Source: Thermoprotei archaeon (GTDB lineage: Archaea; Thermoproteota; Thermoprotei; Gearchaeales; WAQG01). From it: a stretch of DNA of 64,000 nt. The notes below the pieces were generated by a model that searched no databases, was not told the DNA's origin, and saw only the letters and a list, made by a program, of their open reading frames with translations. Both the position numbers and the translations under genes were made by a program. Shown here piece by piece: positions 6,255-60,209 of this stretch (within the stretch, counting starts at the first letter, position 1; every line of letters starts with the position of its first letter). The stretch lies in contig JAVZOV010000001.1 in NCBI GenBank assembly GCA_038881895.1, positions 248,001 to 312,000 of the forward strand, read 5' to 3'.

Positions 6255-6384
6255 TTCTATTTTTATTATCATTCATTAATGGTAATAAATTTCAAAATAA
6301 TTGTATATGCTAACAATTTGTACTTTGTATATATATTGTGTTATCTTTGTTCTTAGTTATTGGTTAGACCATATGTAATTGGTA

Positions 6385-6562
6385 TTACTCCCTGTTGAAG
6401 TAGGAGATTCTTTGTTTCTCTGCTTAAGGTTTTCATTGTACCGAGTCCGAGCTGTATCAATCTAGTCCATGGCCTGCGTGAGAGTGACTTGCTTAAAATA
6501 TGGACAGCATTTATTTAAGCTTCTCAACAATTCATCCCACGGTTTAAACCGTAGACTTTCTT
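6385..6562 (-). mobile_element. Decayed IS200/IS605-like element, tnpB-less ends (copy A)
   Basis: Read on the minus strand, a terminal hairpin (ACGGTTT/AAACCGT at 6539-6552, followed by GGGATGAA) is linked by a short stretch to a sequence matching the 3' end of tnpB and the right end of the element (6385-6445, ARTRYNE-like peptide then an imperfect CTCC/GGAG stem). Copies B and C, at about 33.1 and 42.1 kb, share this arrangement. Nearly all of tnpB, and all of tnpA, are missing. The right-end segment is the part from which omega RNAs are normally made. Decay is clear from stops in the peptide frame. Confidence 0.6.
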
Positions 6563-6626
6563 ACAAAGCTCATGTAATTATATTTAAGCTCATTGATAAT
6601 TCATGGTTAAAACCGTATGCTTTTCT
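6512..6626. repeat. Imperfect tandem copy of a terminal hairpin
   Basis: Two related units of about 48 bases lie 69 bases apart (6512-6561 and 6581-6626). Both read TATTTAAGCT, then ATTCAT, then a GGTTTAAACC or GGTTAAAACC core, then GTA(G/T)(A/G)C and a TTTCT tail. The first has the complete palindromic stem ACGGTTTAAACCGT. They look like two generations of the same insertion-element end. Confidence 0.5.
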
Positions 6627-33011: not shown

Positions 33012-33069
33012 TAGCCAATCACAATAATATTATCACGCACTATAATAAATTAATATTGATGAATCAATT

Positions 33070-33247
33070 GACACTCTCCTCGACTGAAGTCGAGAGATTC
33101 TCGGTTCTTTAGGACTAATCCCTTCATCATACCGAGTTCTGGAATTTGCAAAACCAGCCCCTGCCATGGACATGTAGCCCATAGCCCGCTTGAGAACGAC
33201 TCGCTCAAAAATTAGGCGTTCATCCCATGATTAAAATCATGGGCTTT
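33070..33247 (-). mobile_element. Decayed IS200/IS605-like element, internally deleted (copy B)
   Basis: The clearest copy. On the minus strand: a terminal hairpin CCCATGATT/AATCATGGG (33224-33243) then GATGAA; about 20 bases later an open frame for the last about 45 residues of a TnpB-like protein (GYMSMAGAGFANSRTRYDE and EPRISRLQSRR); then the right end with a perfect stem CTCGAC/GTCGAG (33079-33094) and GAGAGTGTCAATTG. LE, deleted middle and RE match an IS605-derived non-autonomous element. The omega-RNA-bearing right end is intact. The LE hairpin also encodes the end of the adjacent nuclease gene. Confidence 0.7.
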
Positions 33248-33859
33248 CTGCAATGTCTTAGGTAATTTTATTGGTATGTGTTCGATTTCATCCATGTAAT
33301 CCTCAAATTTATCTATAAAGTCTTGTAGTTGATATAATGTTACAATCGGAATTCCTGCAACATATTCTGGTACACTCTTTGGTGGTATAACTATTACTGG
33401 TATTAATATTATTATTGATTTGTTTGATATTAGTGGTGCTAAGATCTTTCCTGCGATATTTTTGAAGAGTAACATTTTTGATAAATGATTATTCACGATA
33501 CGTGATATATTGCCTGATATTCTAGTTTTTATCCAATGTTTGCATTCTATTACGTGTACATATTTATCCCTAATTGCAATAATATCAATCTCATTTCTTT
33601 TATTTTGTAATGTAAAGTGAAGGTTTCTTATGGTAAAGAAATTGTTTAATTCATAAACTCCAGCTACTATGAGTTCAAAATTCTGCCATGTTAGTATTTC
33701 TAATATTTCGTTAAGCTGAAATCCATTCCGTAATGCAGTACTTACTATCAATGCTGGATTGCTTTCATCAGTTATTCCTAATATTTCTAGGTCATTTTTA
33801 TTTAAAGTTCTTTTTAATGCTAAATCCCAGAGTACTTTTCTAATTAAATCATTTAGCAT
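33212..33859 (-). CDS. PD-(D/E)XK nuclease-like protein with a C-terminus supplied by an insertion element
   Basis: 215 residues from ATG at 33859 (MLNDLIRKVLW); an upstream in-frame ATG at 33961 is less likely. The nuclease core reads NEIDIIAIRDKYVHVIECKHW: Asp, then E-x-K, as in archaeal Holliday-junction/Mrr-type restriction-like folds. The leading helical domain is unrecognised. The final eleven or so residues (KAHDFNHGMNA) and the stop codon are read from the terminal hairpin of the IS-like copy B, so the native end of the gene was displaced. Function cannot be assigned beyond nucleic-acid cleavage. Confidence 0.65.
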   Translation of the reverse strand: MLNDLIRKVLWDLALKRTLNKNDLEILGITDESNPALIVSTALRNGFQLNEILEILTWQNFELIVAGVYELNNFFTIRNLHFTLQNKRNEIDIIAIRDKYVHVIECKHWIKTRISGNISRIVNNHLSKMLLFKNIAGKILAPLISNKSIIILIPVIVIPPKSVPEYVAGIPIVTLYQLQDFIDKFEDYMDEIEHIPIKLPKTLQKAHDFNHGMNA

Positions 33860-34127
33860 TGTTTTGAATATGTTTTTATAAAATAAAAAATTATTTCTCG
33901 TTCCTCTTTTTGCAATAGATAGCGGTTTTGGGGTAGTTAGGTTAAATGGAGACTTGTTCATGTTTGGACTGACTTCTTCTCTGCTCTAAATAAAGGCTTT
34001 CAGTTGTAAACTCTGTTGGTCGTGTGGCGACCTATAAATATAAATTGATAGAGATTTCTCTCACACAAACTGATCCTAGTTAAAGAAAGGGTATGCAAAA
34101 GAATTTGTCAAGAAGACTGATGAATCC

Positions 34128-41964: not shown

Positions 41965-42290
41965 TTATTCTCACTAACCACTTATTTTTATTCTACTCTG
42001 TAAAATAAAGTTTACTTTAGAATAAGAAAGAGAATGATACATTTACTCCTTAATATTTGATTAAACAATCTTCACTGAAGCTGAAAGATCTTCAGTTCCT
42101 TAAAACCAACCTCTTATTATATTGAGTTCTGATATGAGTGATTCACTCAAAAAGCTTATGGCTAACTTAAGCTTATCAGCAATCATAGGACTGAAGTTCT
42201 AGATTCCCTTGTCTAATTTTTCTGTAAGGAAGGGTTATTTTTATTAAATAAATTTATTTACATCTCAATAATTACAATTAAAGAGAATGG
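41965..42290. other. Intergenic region holding a decayed IS-like end
   Basis: 326 bases between divergent cdc48 and the Yip1-like gene. It contains the copy C element end listed next. The first 40 bases next to cdc48 are A/T-rich and probably hold its promoter; the last 60 before 42291 are likewise A/T-rich. Confidence 0.5.
42065..42170 (-). mobile_element. Decayed IS200/IS605-like right end (copy C)
   Basis: Minus-strand sequence matches the right end of copy B: an ATTGAGTTCTGATA-like stretch, then AAGGAACTGAAGATCTTTCAGCTTCAGTGAAG, in place of AAAGAACCGAGAATCTCTCGACTTCAGTCGAGGAG, with a degenerate stem TTCACTGAAG. TGAGTGATTCACTCAAAAA corresponds to the TTTTTGAGCGAGTCGTTCTC part of copy B. 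No hairpin at the left end is preserved and the frame has several stops. Confidence 0.5.
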
Positions 42291-53839: not shown

Positions 53840-54062
53840 CTCACAACTGAAAGTCTCTTATAACTGTTGTTATTTCTTAATTCGAACAAGCTGCTGGAGA
53901 TGGTTCTAGAGTTTTCTAGACTGAGGATAGTGAAGTGGGTTGTTATGCTTGCTTCCCTAGCAGGAGCTGGTTTGACATACCACAAACTCAATACAATGAA
54001 ACCTCAAACAAAGAAGCAGAAAATCTCCCACTTTAGCCGTAAAAAACAGTTTCAAAATAGAT
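53840..54062 (+). mobile_element. Decayed IS200/IS605-like right end with a TnpB C-terminal fragment
   Basis: The plus strand encodes a short frame with VVMLASLAGAGLTYHKLN and KQKISHFSRKK, aligning with GYMSMAGAGFANSRTRYDE and EPRISRLQSRR of copy B. DNA similarity includes GCAGGAGCTGGTTT against GCAGGGGCTGGTTT. AATCTCCCACTTTAGCCGTAAAA (54022-54044) corresponds to the AATCTCTCGACTTCAGTCGAGGA right end. The open frame 53867-54064 is thus a remnant, not a gene. It faces the opposite way from copies A-C. Confidence 0.5.
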
Positions 54063-54096
54063 AGACTTAAATAGACGTAAGTCGTAATATCTCTTG

Positions 54097-54705
54097 ATGG
54101 AGAAGCTTTACACTCTCAAAGAGGCTAAGAGGCTTCTGGGCGTTACAACTAGGACTATTCAGAGGTGGGATAAGGGGGGCAAGATTAGGTGTGTTAGGAC
54201 TGTTGGTGGCAGGAGGAGGGTTCCTGAAAGCGAGATTAAGCGCATTCTAGGCTTAAGGGAAGAGAGGATTGTTATTGGGTATGCAAGGGTTTCATCTTCA
54301 ACACAAAAGGATGATTTGGAAAGACAGAAACAACTTATTTCAAGTTACGCTAAAGAGAAAGGTTACGGTGAAGTTCAGGTTCTTTCAGATGTAGGCTCTG
54401 GGCTTAATGAGAATAGAAGGAATTTTCTAAAGCTCTTAGACATGGTTTTTGAGAGAAAGATCTCAAAGGTTATAGTTGCTTACGAGGATAGGCTTACAAG
54501 GTTTGGGATTGAAACTCTAAGGAGAGTGTTCTCAGTTTTTGGGACGGAGATAGAGGTGATAAACCATGAAGAGAGGACACCCCATGAAGAGCTTGTTGAA
54601 GACTTAATCACTATAGTCTCGAGCTTTGCTGGAAGGATCTACGGCTTGAGATCCCATGAGTATGAGAAGGTTGTTGAAGGTGTCAAACAGCTCATATCAG
54701 GTTAG
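54097..54705 (+). CDS. tnpA: IS607-family serine recombinase TnpA
   Basis: About 202 residues from ATG at 54097 (TTG at 54094 possible). An N-terminal MerR-like helix-turn-helix ([24 protein letters not shown]) binds DNA; the catalytic domain starts [20 protein letters not shown], with the nucleophilic Ser near position 66. Arg-rich FGIETLRRV and YEDRLTRFG are intact. IS607 TnpA moves the element through a circular intermediate without target duplication. The gene looks complete. Base composition is GC-richer than its neighbours and favours AGG/CTC-type codons, which fits acquisition. Confidence 0.93.
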
Positions 54706-55174
54706 AGCATATAACATTAAGCATGGCTACGAAGTTTCAGGCTTCTTAGAAATGTATAGGCTGATGCTTCAGAGGGCGATAGACGAAATATGGGCTAGGA
54801 TTAGGTGGGTTGAGAAACTCGATAGATTTGGGAGGCGCAGGATCATCCCAATCATACCTAAAGATGGAGCGTTCAAGAACCATTACCTAAGGGATTTGTT
54901 GATGAAGGATTGGCCCTACTCAAAGCACTACGTCGACTCAGCTATTAAGCAGGCATACAGCATCGTGAAATCTTGGAGGAGAAATTATATTAGAGGCGAG
55001 AGGAGTGGGGAGGAGCCTACCGTCAAGAAAAGGTTTGTCAGAATCAAGGAGACATTATATAGCTTTAGGGATGGAAAGATAAGGGTGAGCGTTAAACCTT
55101 ACAGGGAGTATCTGGAGTTCGACATCTCAAAGGCATGGTTTTTAAAGAGGGTAAGGGGAGAGTTAGGGTTCTGA
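54680..55174 (+). pseudogene. tnpB: TnpB of the IS607 element, N-terminal part, truncated
   Basis: About 164 residues from GTG at 54680, overlapping tnpA. The sequence is the N-terminal domain of the IS607-type TnpB: HGYEVSGFLEMYRLMLQRAIDEIW, LRDLLMKDWPYSKHYVDSAI, then SWRRNYIRGERSGEEP and VSVKPYREYLEFDIS. It stops at 55174, well before the RuvC-like catalytic parts. A later fragment (55390-55593) is out of frame. Not functional as a nuclease. Confidence 0.85.
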
Positions 55175-59523: not shown

Positions 59524-59636
59524 GCCCCGGTCGTATAGAGGGCATGGGAACCCGTAAAATCCGGACAAGTATTCCGGCCTTTCGAGCACACTGCGTGGAG
59601 AGCCGGAGATCCCGGGTTCAAATCCCGGCCGGGGCA
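59524..59636 (+). tRNA. tRNA-Glu (UUC) with two introns
   Basis: The acceptor stem GCCCCGG/CCGGGGC (59524-59530 with 59629-59635) and T-stem CCGGG/CCCGG (612-616 with 624-628) with loop TTCAAAT are perfect. Anticodon stem CCGGC (59574-59578) pairs GCCGG (59602-59606). The anticodon is TTC at 59581-59583. A canonical intron of 16 nt, about 59585-59600, follows position 37. A second intron of about 21 nt, about 59539-59559, interrupts the D-loop between A14-G15 and the T-C-C-G-G segment. Removing both leaves 76 nt plus normal D-arm. It ends one base before the stop of convergent tdk. Confidence 0.88.
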
Positions 59637-60209
59637 CTATTCTGGCTTACCTGGAACAATGTGATGGAGTCTACATCTTGCTTCATATAGTTCTTTACCA
59701 CCAACCATAATTCGTGGGCTATCATACGGTGCAGGATTTCCATCGATGAGACGTTGGGTCCTCGTTGCCTCCTTACCACAAATAGTACACACAGCTGTTA
59801 AATAGTATATTGAGTCTGCTCTGACAAGAAAGTCAGCCATGATTTCAAAAGGTTCTCCTCTAAAATCAAGGTTTAAACCTGATATTATCACTCTTTTACC
59901 CTCATTCACAAAATCTTCACATAATTTTACAATTGTTCGAGGAAAAAATTGTACTTCATCAATACCTATGACATCTAAATTATTAGAAATCTGACGCATA
60001 ATTAACATACCTTCTTCATTAGTAGGAATGACGTATGCTTGATATCTTAAACCGTTATGTGTAACAACCTCACTTTCACTGTATCTTCTATCTAAAGCAG
60101 GTTTAAAGATTGCAACTCGTTTTTTGGCATATACTGCTCTTTCAATAAGACGTATTAATTCGGAGGTCTTGCCAGCAAACATAGGTCCAGTGATCACTTC
60201 AAGACTCAT
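59637..60209 (-). CDS. tdk: Thymidine kinase (type II)
   Basis: 190 residues from ATG at 60209 (MSLEVITGPMFAGKT); a start 24 bases upstream is less likely. P-loop GPMFAGKTSE, the DE of DVIGIDEVQFF, lasso region and C-terminal zinc cysteines CTICGKEA and CRLHH. It phosphorylates thymidine with ATP in the salvage pathway. Presence suggests use of external thymidine. Its stop codon touches the end of the tRNA gene with no gap. Confidence 0.95.
   Translation of the reverse strand: MSLEVITGPMFAGKTSELIRLIERAVYAKKRVAIFKPALDRRYSESEVVTHNGLRYQAYVIPTNEEGMLIMRQISNNLDVIGIDEVQFFPRTIVKLCEDFVNEGKRVIISGLNLDFRGEPFEIMADFLVRADSIYYLTAVCTICGKEATRTQRLIDGNPAPYDSPRIMVGGKELYEARCRLHHIVPGKPE

Follow-up and report, generated by a model that had tools for sequence, protein, structure and literature searches.

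Short elements that have the ends of IS200/IS605-type transposons and no tnpB gene raise the question of whether they are inert deletion products or sources of a guide (omega) RNA that a TnpB encoded elsewhere, or the host, could use. We addressed this question for a 64,000-nucleotide stretch of DNA (G000:C1:248001-312000, here called the window) from an archaeal genome of 1.75 Mb in seven contigs (G000), in which the original prediction had placed five such copies, at 6.4, 33.1, 42.1, 53.9 and 59.0 kb. The search used R2, a covariance model of the omega-RNA scaffold built from 27 sequences (alignment A3) that included the 33.1 kb copy and excluded the other four reported copies. Run across the whole window with filters off, R2 gave 14 hits, and its top four stood above noise: 33068-33193 on the minus strand (E=1.6e-27, a training row of the model), 6379-6481 on the minus strand (E=3.8e-5), 53943-54055 on the plus strand (E=1.9e-4) and 42062-42176 on the minus strand (E=0.0036); the fifth hit had E=0.5. 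These hits bear out the copies at 6.4, 33.1, 42.1 and 53.9 kb. The copy at 59.0 kb was rejected, the nearest R2 hit, at 59845, being at noise level (E=6.5, filters off), and the supported copies comprise three on the minus strand and one on the plus strand rather than four and one. Two motifs said to be common to the copies did not hold up as such: the tail motif GAGTGTCAA occurs once in the window, which is the chance level, and the stem CTCGACTGAAGTCGAG, searched with up to three mismatches allowed, was found in the window at 33079-33094 alone. Because R2 detects four copies, yet this stem is confined to one of them, we regard the window copies as homologous but diverged.

The copy at 33.1 kb was dissected in detail. 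An element is present where 33070-33247 had been proposed, but it is larger, spanning 194 bp (33068..33261, minus strand) from just after a TTAC to a terminal TCAA, as delimited from the sequence, own-genome copies and R2; it represents a short, tnpB-less form like the palindrome-associated transposable elements (PATEs) described from Haloquadratum walsbyi (PMC3119063). The TTAC on its left flank (33262..33265, minus strand) is the target site and presumed TAM that the original prediction suggested looking for at the junctions. A left-end hairpin, CCCATGATTTTAATCATGGG, occupies 33224..33243 (minus strand), and the left end around it is the same or nearly the same in the TnpB-bearing loci L001, L003 and L005. 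By-eye comparison with L001-L005 and L041 identified a 5' hairpin remnant, GAGCGAGTCGTTC, at 33194..33206 (minus strand). This remnant abuts the scaffold in the 33.1 kb copy, whereas in TnpB-bearing copies the same short hairpin immediately precedes the tnpB ATG, which indicates that the 33.1 kb copy lost its ORF by internal deletion. The omega-RNA scaffold and right end fill 33068..33193 (minus strand), including the right-end hairpin CTCGAC/GTCGAG (33079..33094), located by the mismatch-tolerant stem search. The third stem and its loop are damaged: two pairs of the stem are non-standard in the R2 alignment, and the loop meant to pair with the 3' end reads TTTTGCAAA in place of the TTTGACAC of other copies, and therefore the omega-RNA of this copy, judged from its sequence, is probably not functional. 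A would-be guide, placed by analogy with known omega-RNAs, would be the flank directly after TCAA (33048..33067, minus strand).

The 33.1 kb element is inserted in the 3' end of an ORF with a NERD domain (33212..33961, minus strand; Pfam NERD), with the junction at codon 233/234, and the last 16 codons of this ORF are element-derived, except for the first base of the first one. Matches to the ORF occur in 36 of 40 relatives at 21-31% identity, and 34 of these 36 end by query residue 236.

The three other supported copies are diverged or decayed. The 6.4 kb copy is a decayed short form (6379..6573, minus strand) and the 42.1 kb copy a strongly decayed one (42062..42223, minus strand); their left ends and the TTAC beside each (6574-6577 and 42224-42227, minus strand) were assigned by eye. 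The 53.9 kb copy (53943..54055, plus strand) is a decayed scaffold with an unrecognised left end, and sits just before an IS607-type remnant. That remnant (54094-55174, plus strand) encodes a 203-residue serine recombinase with a MerR-type helix-turn-helix, followed by a 172-residue frame that has no Pfam match and may be a cut TnpB start. Elsewhere in the window, 59524-59636 (plus strand) resembles an intron-containing tRNA gene (GCCCCGG ... CCGGGGC) and is absent from the ARAGORN and Rfam gathering-scan listings. As part of our best explanation, we read the window copies as decayed IS200/IS605-type elements with internal deletions, or PATEs, whose TnpB-bearing family members lie elsewhere in the genome. 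PATEs cover these copies. By itself, the finding in the window is ordinary, and the proposal that they supply orphan guide RNAs is weak for them, three being diverged or decayed and the 33.1 kb loop changed. The same proposal is far stronger for a second class of element found outside the window, to which we return below.

The statement that no intact tnpB accompanies these ends is correct for the window and incorrect for the genome, where full-length TnpBs with the same 3' end are encoded at L002, L003 and L005. BLAST of the 33.1 kb element against its own genome gave 40 matches. One is the element itself, six are right ends that adjoin TnpB domains and three are left ends of copies with a TnpB; 30 belong to none of these groups. 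The TnpB profile PF07282 matches the genome 63 times, with six of these matches joined directly to a 3' end of the 33.1 kb type. The open frames comprise 379 codons in L002, 367 in L003 and 386 in L005, and shorter frames of 229 and 213 codons in L001 and L004; L002 and L003 match both PF07282 and PF01385. Many of the TnpBs in this genome are encoded by frames of precisely 410 or 386 codons, with other tails. The assignment to IS200/IS605-type ends with an omega-RNA is well supported, by the TTAC flank, the TCAA end, the subterminal hairpins, the 3' end matching TnpB genes and the complementarity between a loop and the 3' end.

Catalytic residues were read in seven TnpB rows, five of them from the own genome. 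L002, L003 and L005 have the RuvC residues DMG, an alternative glutamate in SERNTSKLC (SERNTSKLCHKC) and NADYNG, with glycine at the canonical RuvC-II glutamate position. The alternative glutamate is present in six of nine loci from named genomes, and the other three are partial frames only. An alternative glutamate position of this kind has been described for Ealt TnpB and the Fanzor-type active site (PMC10711439); as far as the available text of that paper describes it, the glutamate there likewise precedes the first CxxC cysteine by seven positions, with six residues in between, and the canonical RuvC-II position is glycine, whereas the TnpBs studied here are archaeal and have DMG rather than DPG in RuvC-I. 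With D-E-D positions completed by the alternative glutamate, the L002, L003 and L005 TnpBs are predicted to be nuclease-competent. The genome has a single Y1 transposase, despite its 63 PF07282 matches. On contig C6 lies one IS605 element with a Y1 TnpA and a TnpB, its left end built like that of the small elements, and because of this shared design the Y1 TnpA could move the small elements in trans; by eye, the right end of the C6 element seems to be TGTCAG, not TCAA.

A second tnpB-less form, more numerous than the first, accounts for many orphans of ~300 bp, which contain a segment missing from the tnpB-bearing elements compared. This segment, here called the module, consists of a 5' hairpin, TTGAGCGGGTCGCTC, followed by an H-type pseudoknot (stem order A5', B5', A3', B3') that leads into the omega-RNA scaffold. 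In the tnpB-bearing comparison set (L001-L030 and L061) the module was not found, the sole match being a separate orphan near the L004 gene. A covariance model of the module (R1), applied to the own genome with a cut-off of E<=0.001, placed it at 31 sites or more, a lower bound because 150 of 233 candidates were scored. None of the 31 lies in the window, where the best R1 match with filters off had E=0.085. Most of the module places (27 of 31) are separated from every one of the 63 TnpB domain hits by over 1500 nt; the closest begins 15 nt beyond a TnpB frame, on the opposite strand. Some module copies are decayed. In L042 (G000:C2:353123-353340), the first 26 bases, which form the 5' hairpin, are inverted beside the rest of the orphan. 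L054 and L058 lie, by eye, shortly downstream of apparent tRNA 3' ends.

Strong covariation marks the module and also the scaffold. Alignment A2 holds 42 modules from eight genomes, 18 of them own copies, with L165 re-anchored by hand and with L167, L051, L046 and later-fetched places left out. Among its cells 88.3% are paired, although these cells are not independent, since a genome often contains many closely related copies; in 12 of 19 pairs both partners have changed, covariation scores 0.299 where shuffled alignments score 0.154, and pairing falls to 17-45% when the partners are slid by 1-3 columns. Whole-pair switches occur in both pseudoknot stems, with GC, CG, AU and UA all represented in stem A and with UA replaced by CG in 10 cases and GC by CG in seven in stem B, the stem that A2 favours because L051, L167 and L046 are outside it. 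The halves of stem A are mismatched in three of the 18 own copies in A2 (L036, L040 and L060), as if recombined, and L051, L167 and L205 have no 5' strand of stem B.

A protein-coding reading of the module was considered and rejected. Many modules share an ATG and a run of about 12 similar codons, a similarity that the conserved RNA motif explains, and several of the 42 modules contain frame shifts or early stops, such as the stop directly after M in L043 and L047. Known RNA families fared no better as an identification: across the window and 15 loci, no Rfam family reached its gathering cut-off on module or scaffold. In the scans of the 15 loci, which listed matches with E up to 1 or 3, the hits above cut-off were tRNA and 5S rRNA only, elsewhere in the loci. 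Below cut-off, scaffolds matched HgcC (E=0.018) and sot0042 (E=1.4), a tmRNA match (E=0.00047) lay downstream of the module in L130, and the others had E near or above 1 and fell outside the elements. The HgcC match is at the right end of L002 (L002:1725-1830), and HgcC may itself be an omega-RNA.

The module might alternatively be a self-cleaving or processing ribozyme that would trim the 5' end of the omega-RNA. The pseudoknot stem order A5', B5', A3', B3' and the conserved unpaired stretches GUCC.AA and UAAGGC fit such an activity, but the module appears to lack the third stem of HDV-like ribozymes and is matched by no Rfam family in the 15 loci, and we consider a ribozyme highly improbable.

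The module-bearing elements have a promoter-like box and defined ends. Upstream, 21 of 30 own elements carry a TATA-like 8-mer (at least seven of eight positions matching), and in 18 it starts exactly at -28 from the 5' hairpin; shuffled sequences contain such an 8-mer at any of 40 positions in 12% of cases. In other genomes the box was found in 12 of 32 elements. Of the module-bearing elements, 48 of 63 have TTAC at the left end (23 of 30 in the own genome and 25 of 33 in others), compared to 16% of shuffles. Both sets of counts cover 30 of the 31 own places (L207 is out) and score misanchored rows, such as L046, L206 and L208, as misses. By eye, the TTAC-flanked elements have no target duplication, and they have subterminal hairpins at both ends with no inverted terminal repeat; the right-end helix (helix 5) covaries.

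The scaffolds of module-bearing copies were aligned in A4, with 49 rows from 47 of the 49 loci searched (L155 and L194 gave no row), including second rows from L039 and L054 and some rows related through a shared genome. In A4, 90.6% of cells are paired, a value that leans towards the structure because the alignment was fitted to it, and double changes occur in 26 of 29 pairs. The 3' end of the scaffold is shared with TnpB genes and its stems are conserved, as in an omega-RNA. A loop, UUGACA, is complementary to the 3' end, UGUCAA, with six of six pairs formed in 27 of the 49 rows, and 85.9% of cells are paired in register compared to 10-37% when slid. Covariation between loop and 3' end did not exceed that of shuffles (0.126 vs 0.124; 49 rows), so this pairing is argued from conserved complementarity and not from compensatory change.

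An internal loop of the scaffold, UGA opposite GA (for example, in L034 and L039), resembles by eye a box C/D kink-turn, and this resemblance makes binding of L7Ae to the scaffold conceivable. The orphan RNA might serve the host or regulate TnpB, for example as a decoy that titrates the nuclease or as an L7Ae-bound RNA, with no guiding on behalf of the element. The tandem-GA loop is consistent with such a role, as are the sRkB and sRkC RNAs of Pyrococcus abyssi, which according to the available text of PMC3124441 are L7Ae-binding transcripts of repeats related to tnpB. Element ends, differing flanks and patchiness across relatives, however, are more in keeping with selfish spread than with a fixed role in the host, and a host or regulatory function strikes us as unlikely.

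A simpler account is that all copies are deletion products moved by TnpA, with RNA folds inherited from a TnpB-bearing parent and left unused. Such an origin is described for PATEs in the part of PMC3119063 available to us, and the window copies and some copies elsewhere in the genome are indeed decayed. The module speaks against this account: comparison with TnpB-bearing elements did not reveal it there, yet its covariation extends over eight genomes; own-genome modules keep the promoter-like box at a fixed spacing; and a new, covarying module is not made by deletion alone. We regard inertness of the whole family as doubtful.

The phylum-wide distribution of the module is patchy. R1 matched 16 of 398 genomes, the own genome included, in 13 of 163 genera, and did not match the other 382 in a survey that scored ten candidates per genome with strict filters; in two of the 16 (G109 and G210) the hits are weak and looked chance-like when read. 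None of 40 relatives matched the long orphan by BLAST. Carriage by phages or plasmids was rejected, as BLAST against plasmids and phages gave no match and viral contigs contained no exact 23-mer.

In three genomes a different scaffold follows the module: G085 (L129, L168 and L169), G215 (L178, L215 and L217) and G091 (L161). This second scaffold reads like a TnpB tail in one frame in L178, and in G085 and G091 it ends open frames of 420 and 466 codons (L221 and L224) that match PF07282 and PF01385. The module is thus joined to the scaffolds of two or more types of TnpB and, because the second scaffold is the 3' end of another type of TnpB, travels independently of any one TnpB partner. Further kinds of scaffold were also seen after the module, and in L164, L165 and L209 (G091 and G069) the module lies beside other ends, GTTAACTATCCGACAAC, perhaps of IS607 type. 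We tentatively suggest that the pseudoknot could be a portable module that frees any omega-RNA downstream of it from the need for a tnpB of its own, such that the elements would hijack whichever TnpB is resident and would have changed partners at least once in this phylum, and perhaps repeatedly.

A TnpB guide RNA usually derives in cis from the transcript of its tnpB gene. Our main reading, to which we assign a probability of roughly 55%, is that the module-bearing orphans are elements that yield a guide RNA only, are transcribed on their own and rely in trans on a resident TnpB, and that the window copies are decayed PATEs of the same family. It builds on the computed anatomy, the TTAC and TCAA ends, the promoter-like box at fixed spacing, the covariation of both RNA parts, the fusion to at least two scaffold types and the matching full-length TnpBs, and from these we infer transcription, loading in trans, cleavage, transposition and a role for the pseudoknot. 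The proposed element would comprise, in order, the left-end hairpin, an archaeal TATA-like box, the 5' hairpin, the H-type pseudoknot module, the omega-RNA scaffold and a right end terminating in TCAA, with the flank as guide. Its own promoter would produce an RNA of ~205 nt plus guide, which would be loaded in trans into a resident TnpB. As TTAC plus the guide sequence corresponds to the empty insertion site, TnpB would cut unoccupied copies, which would favour retention of the small element, and the Y1 TnpA would move it in trans. TnpB has been reported to trim its own mRNA into omega-RNA (PMC10278001, in the text available). The orphans are without that mRNA, and we suggest that the pseudoknot may replace its 5' part, standing in for tnpB mRNA as a stable, scaffold-independent 5' leader.

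If small elements do make guide RNA alone and borrow the nuclease, then RNA-guided transposon retention has parasites of its own, and the conserved 5' pseudoknot would show what an omega-RNA needs once it is separated from tnpB. The case bears on how guide RNAs became independent of nuclease genes.

Several known systems resemble these elements in part, the nearest being the Haloquadratum PATEs and the sRkB and sRkC RNAs of P. abyssi. A search of the open-access literature, with most subscription journals outside its scope, turned up no report of tnpB-less omega-RNA elements that have a 5' pseudoknot module. The SMN1 MITE of Sulfolobus islandicus, likened here by its description, is a 320-bp, transposase-free archaeal element that needs the ISC1733 transposase in trans, and the available text of PMC3718332 reports no RNA function for it. 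In archaeal omega-RNAs and sotRNAs a hairpin loop pairs with the 3' end as a pseudoknot; in the accessible part of PMC12558985 they are tied to a tnpB gene, whereas the orphans described here have no tnpB and carry an added 5' pseudoknot module. The sRkB and sRkC RNAs of P. abyssi are expressed non-coding RNAs whose main forms include ~209-218 nt. They stem from repeats scattered in the genome, among them the 3' end of an IS605/IS200 OrfB gene, and promoter sequences lie 24 nt before their 5' end (PMC3124441). They differ in that two of six loci are expressed and that they are described as particular to P. abyssi, and the text available to us does not call them guide RNAs; by analogy, they provide a strong precedent for expression of such orphans. 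The Haloquadratum PATEs are like the window copies in being transposase-free, with near-terminal palindromes and without inverted terminal repeats, and some are apparently core deletions of IS605-type elements (PMC3119063). The available part of that description mentions no omega-RNA, promoter or covarying 5' module. The module-bearing elements go beyond this class: what they add to known PATEs is a covarying, promoter-linked and portable 5' RNA module on guide-only elements.
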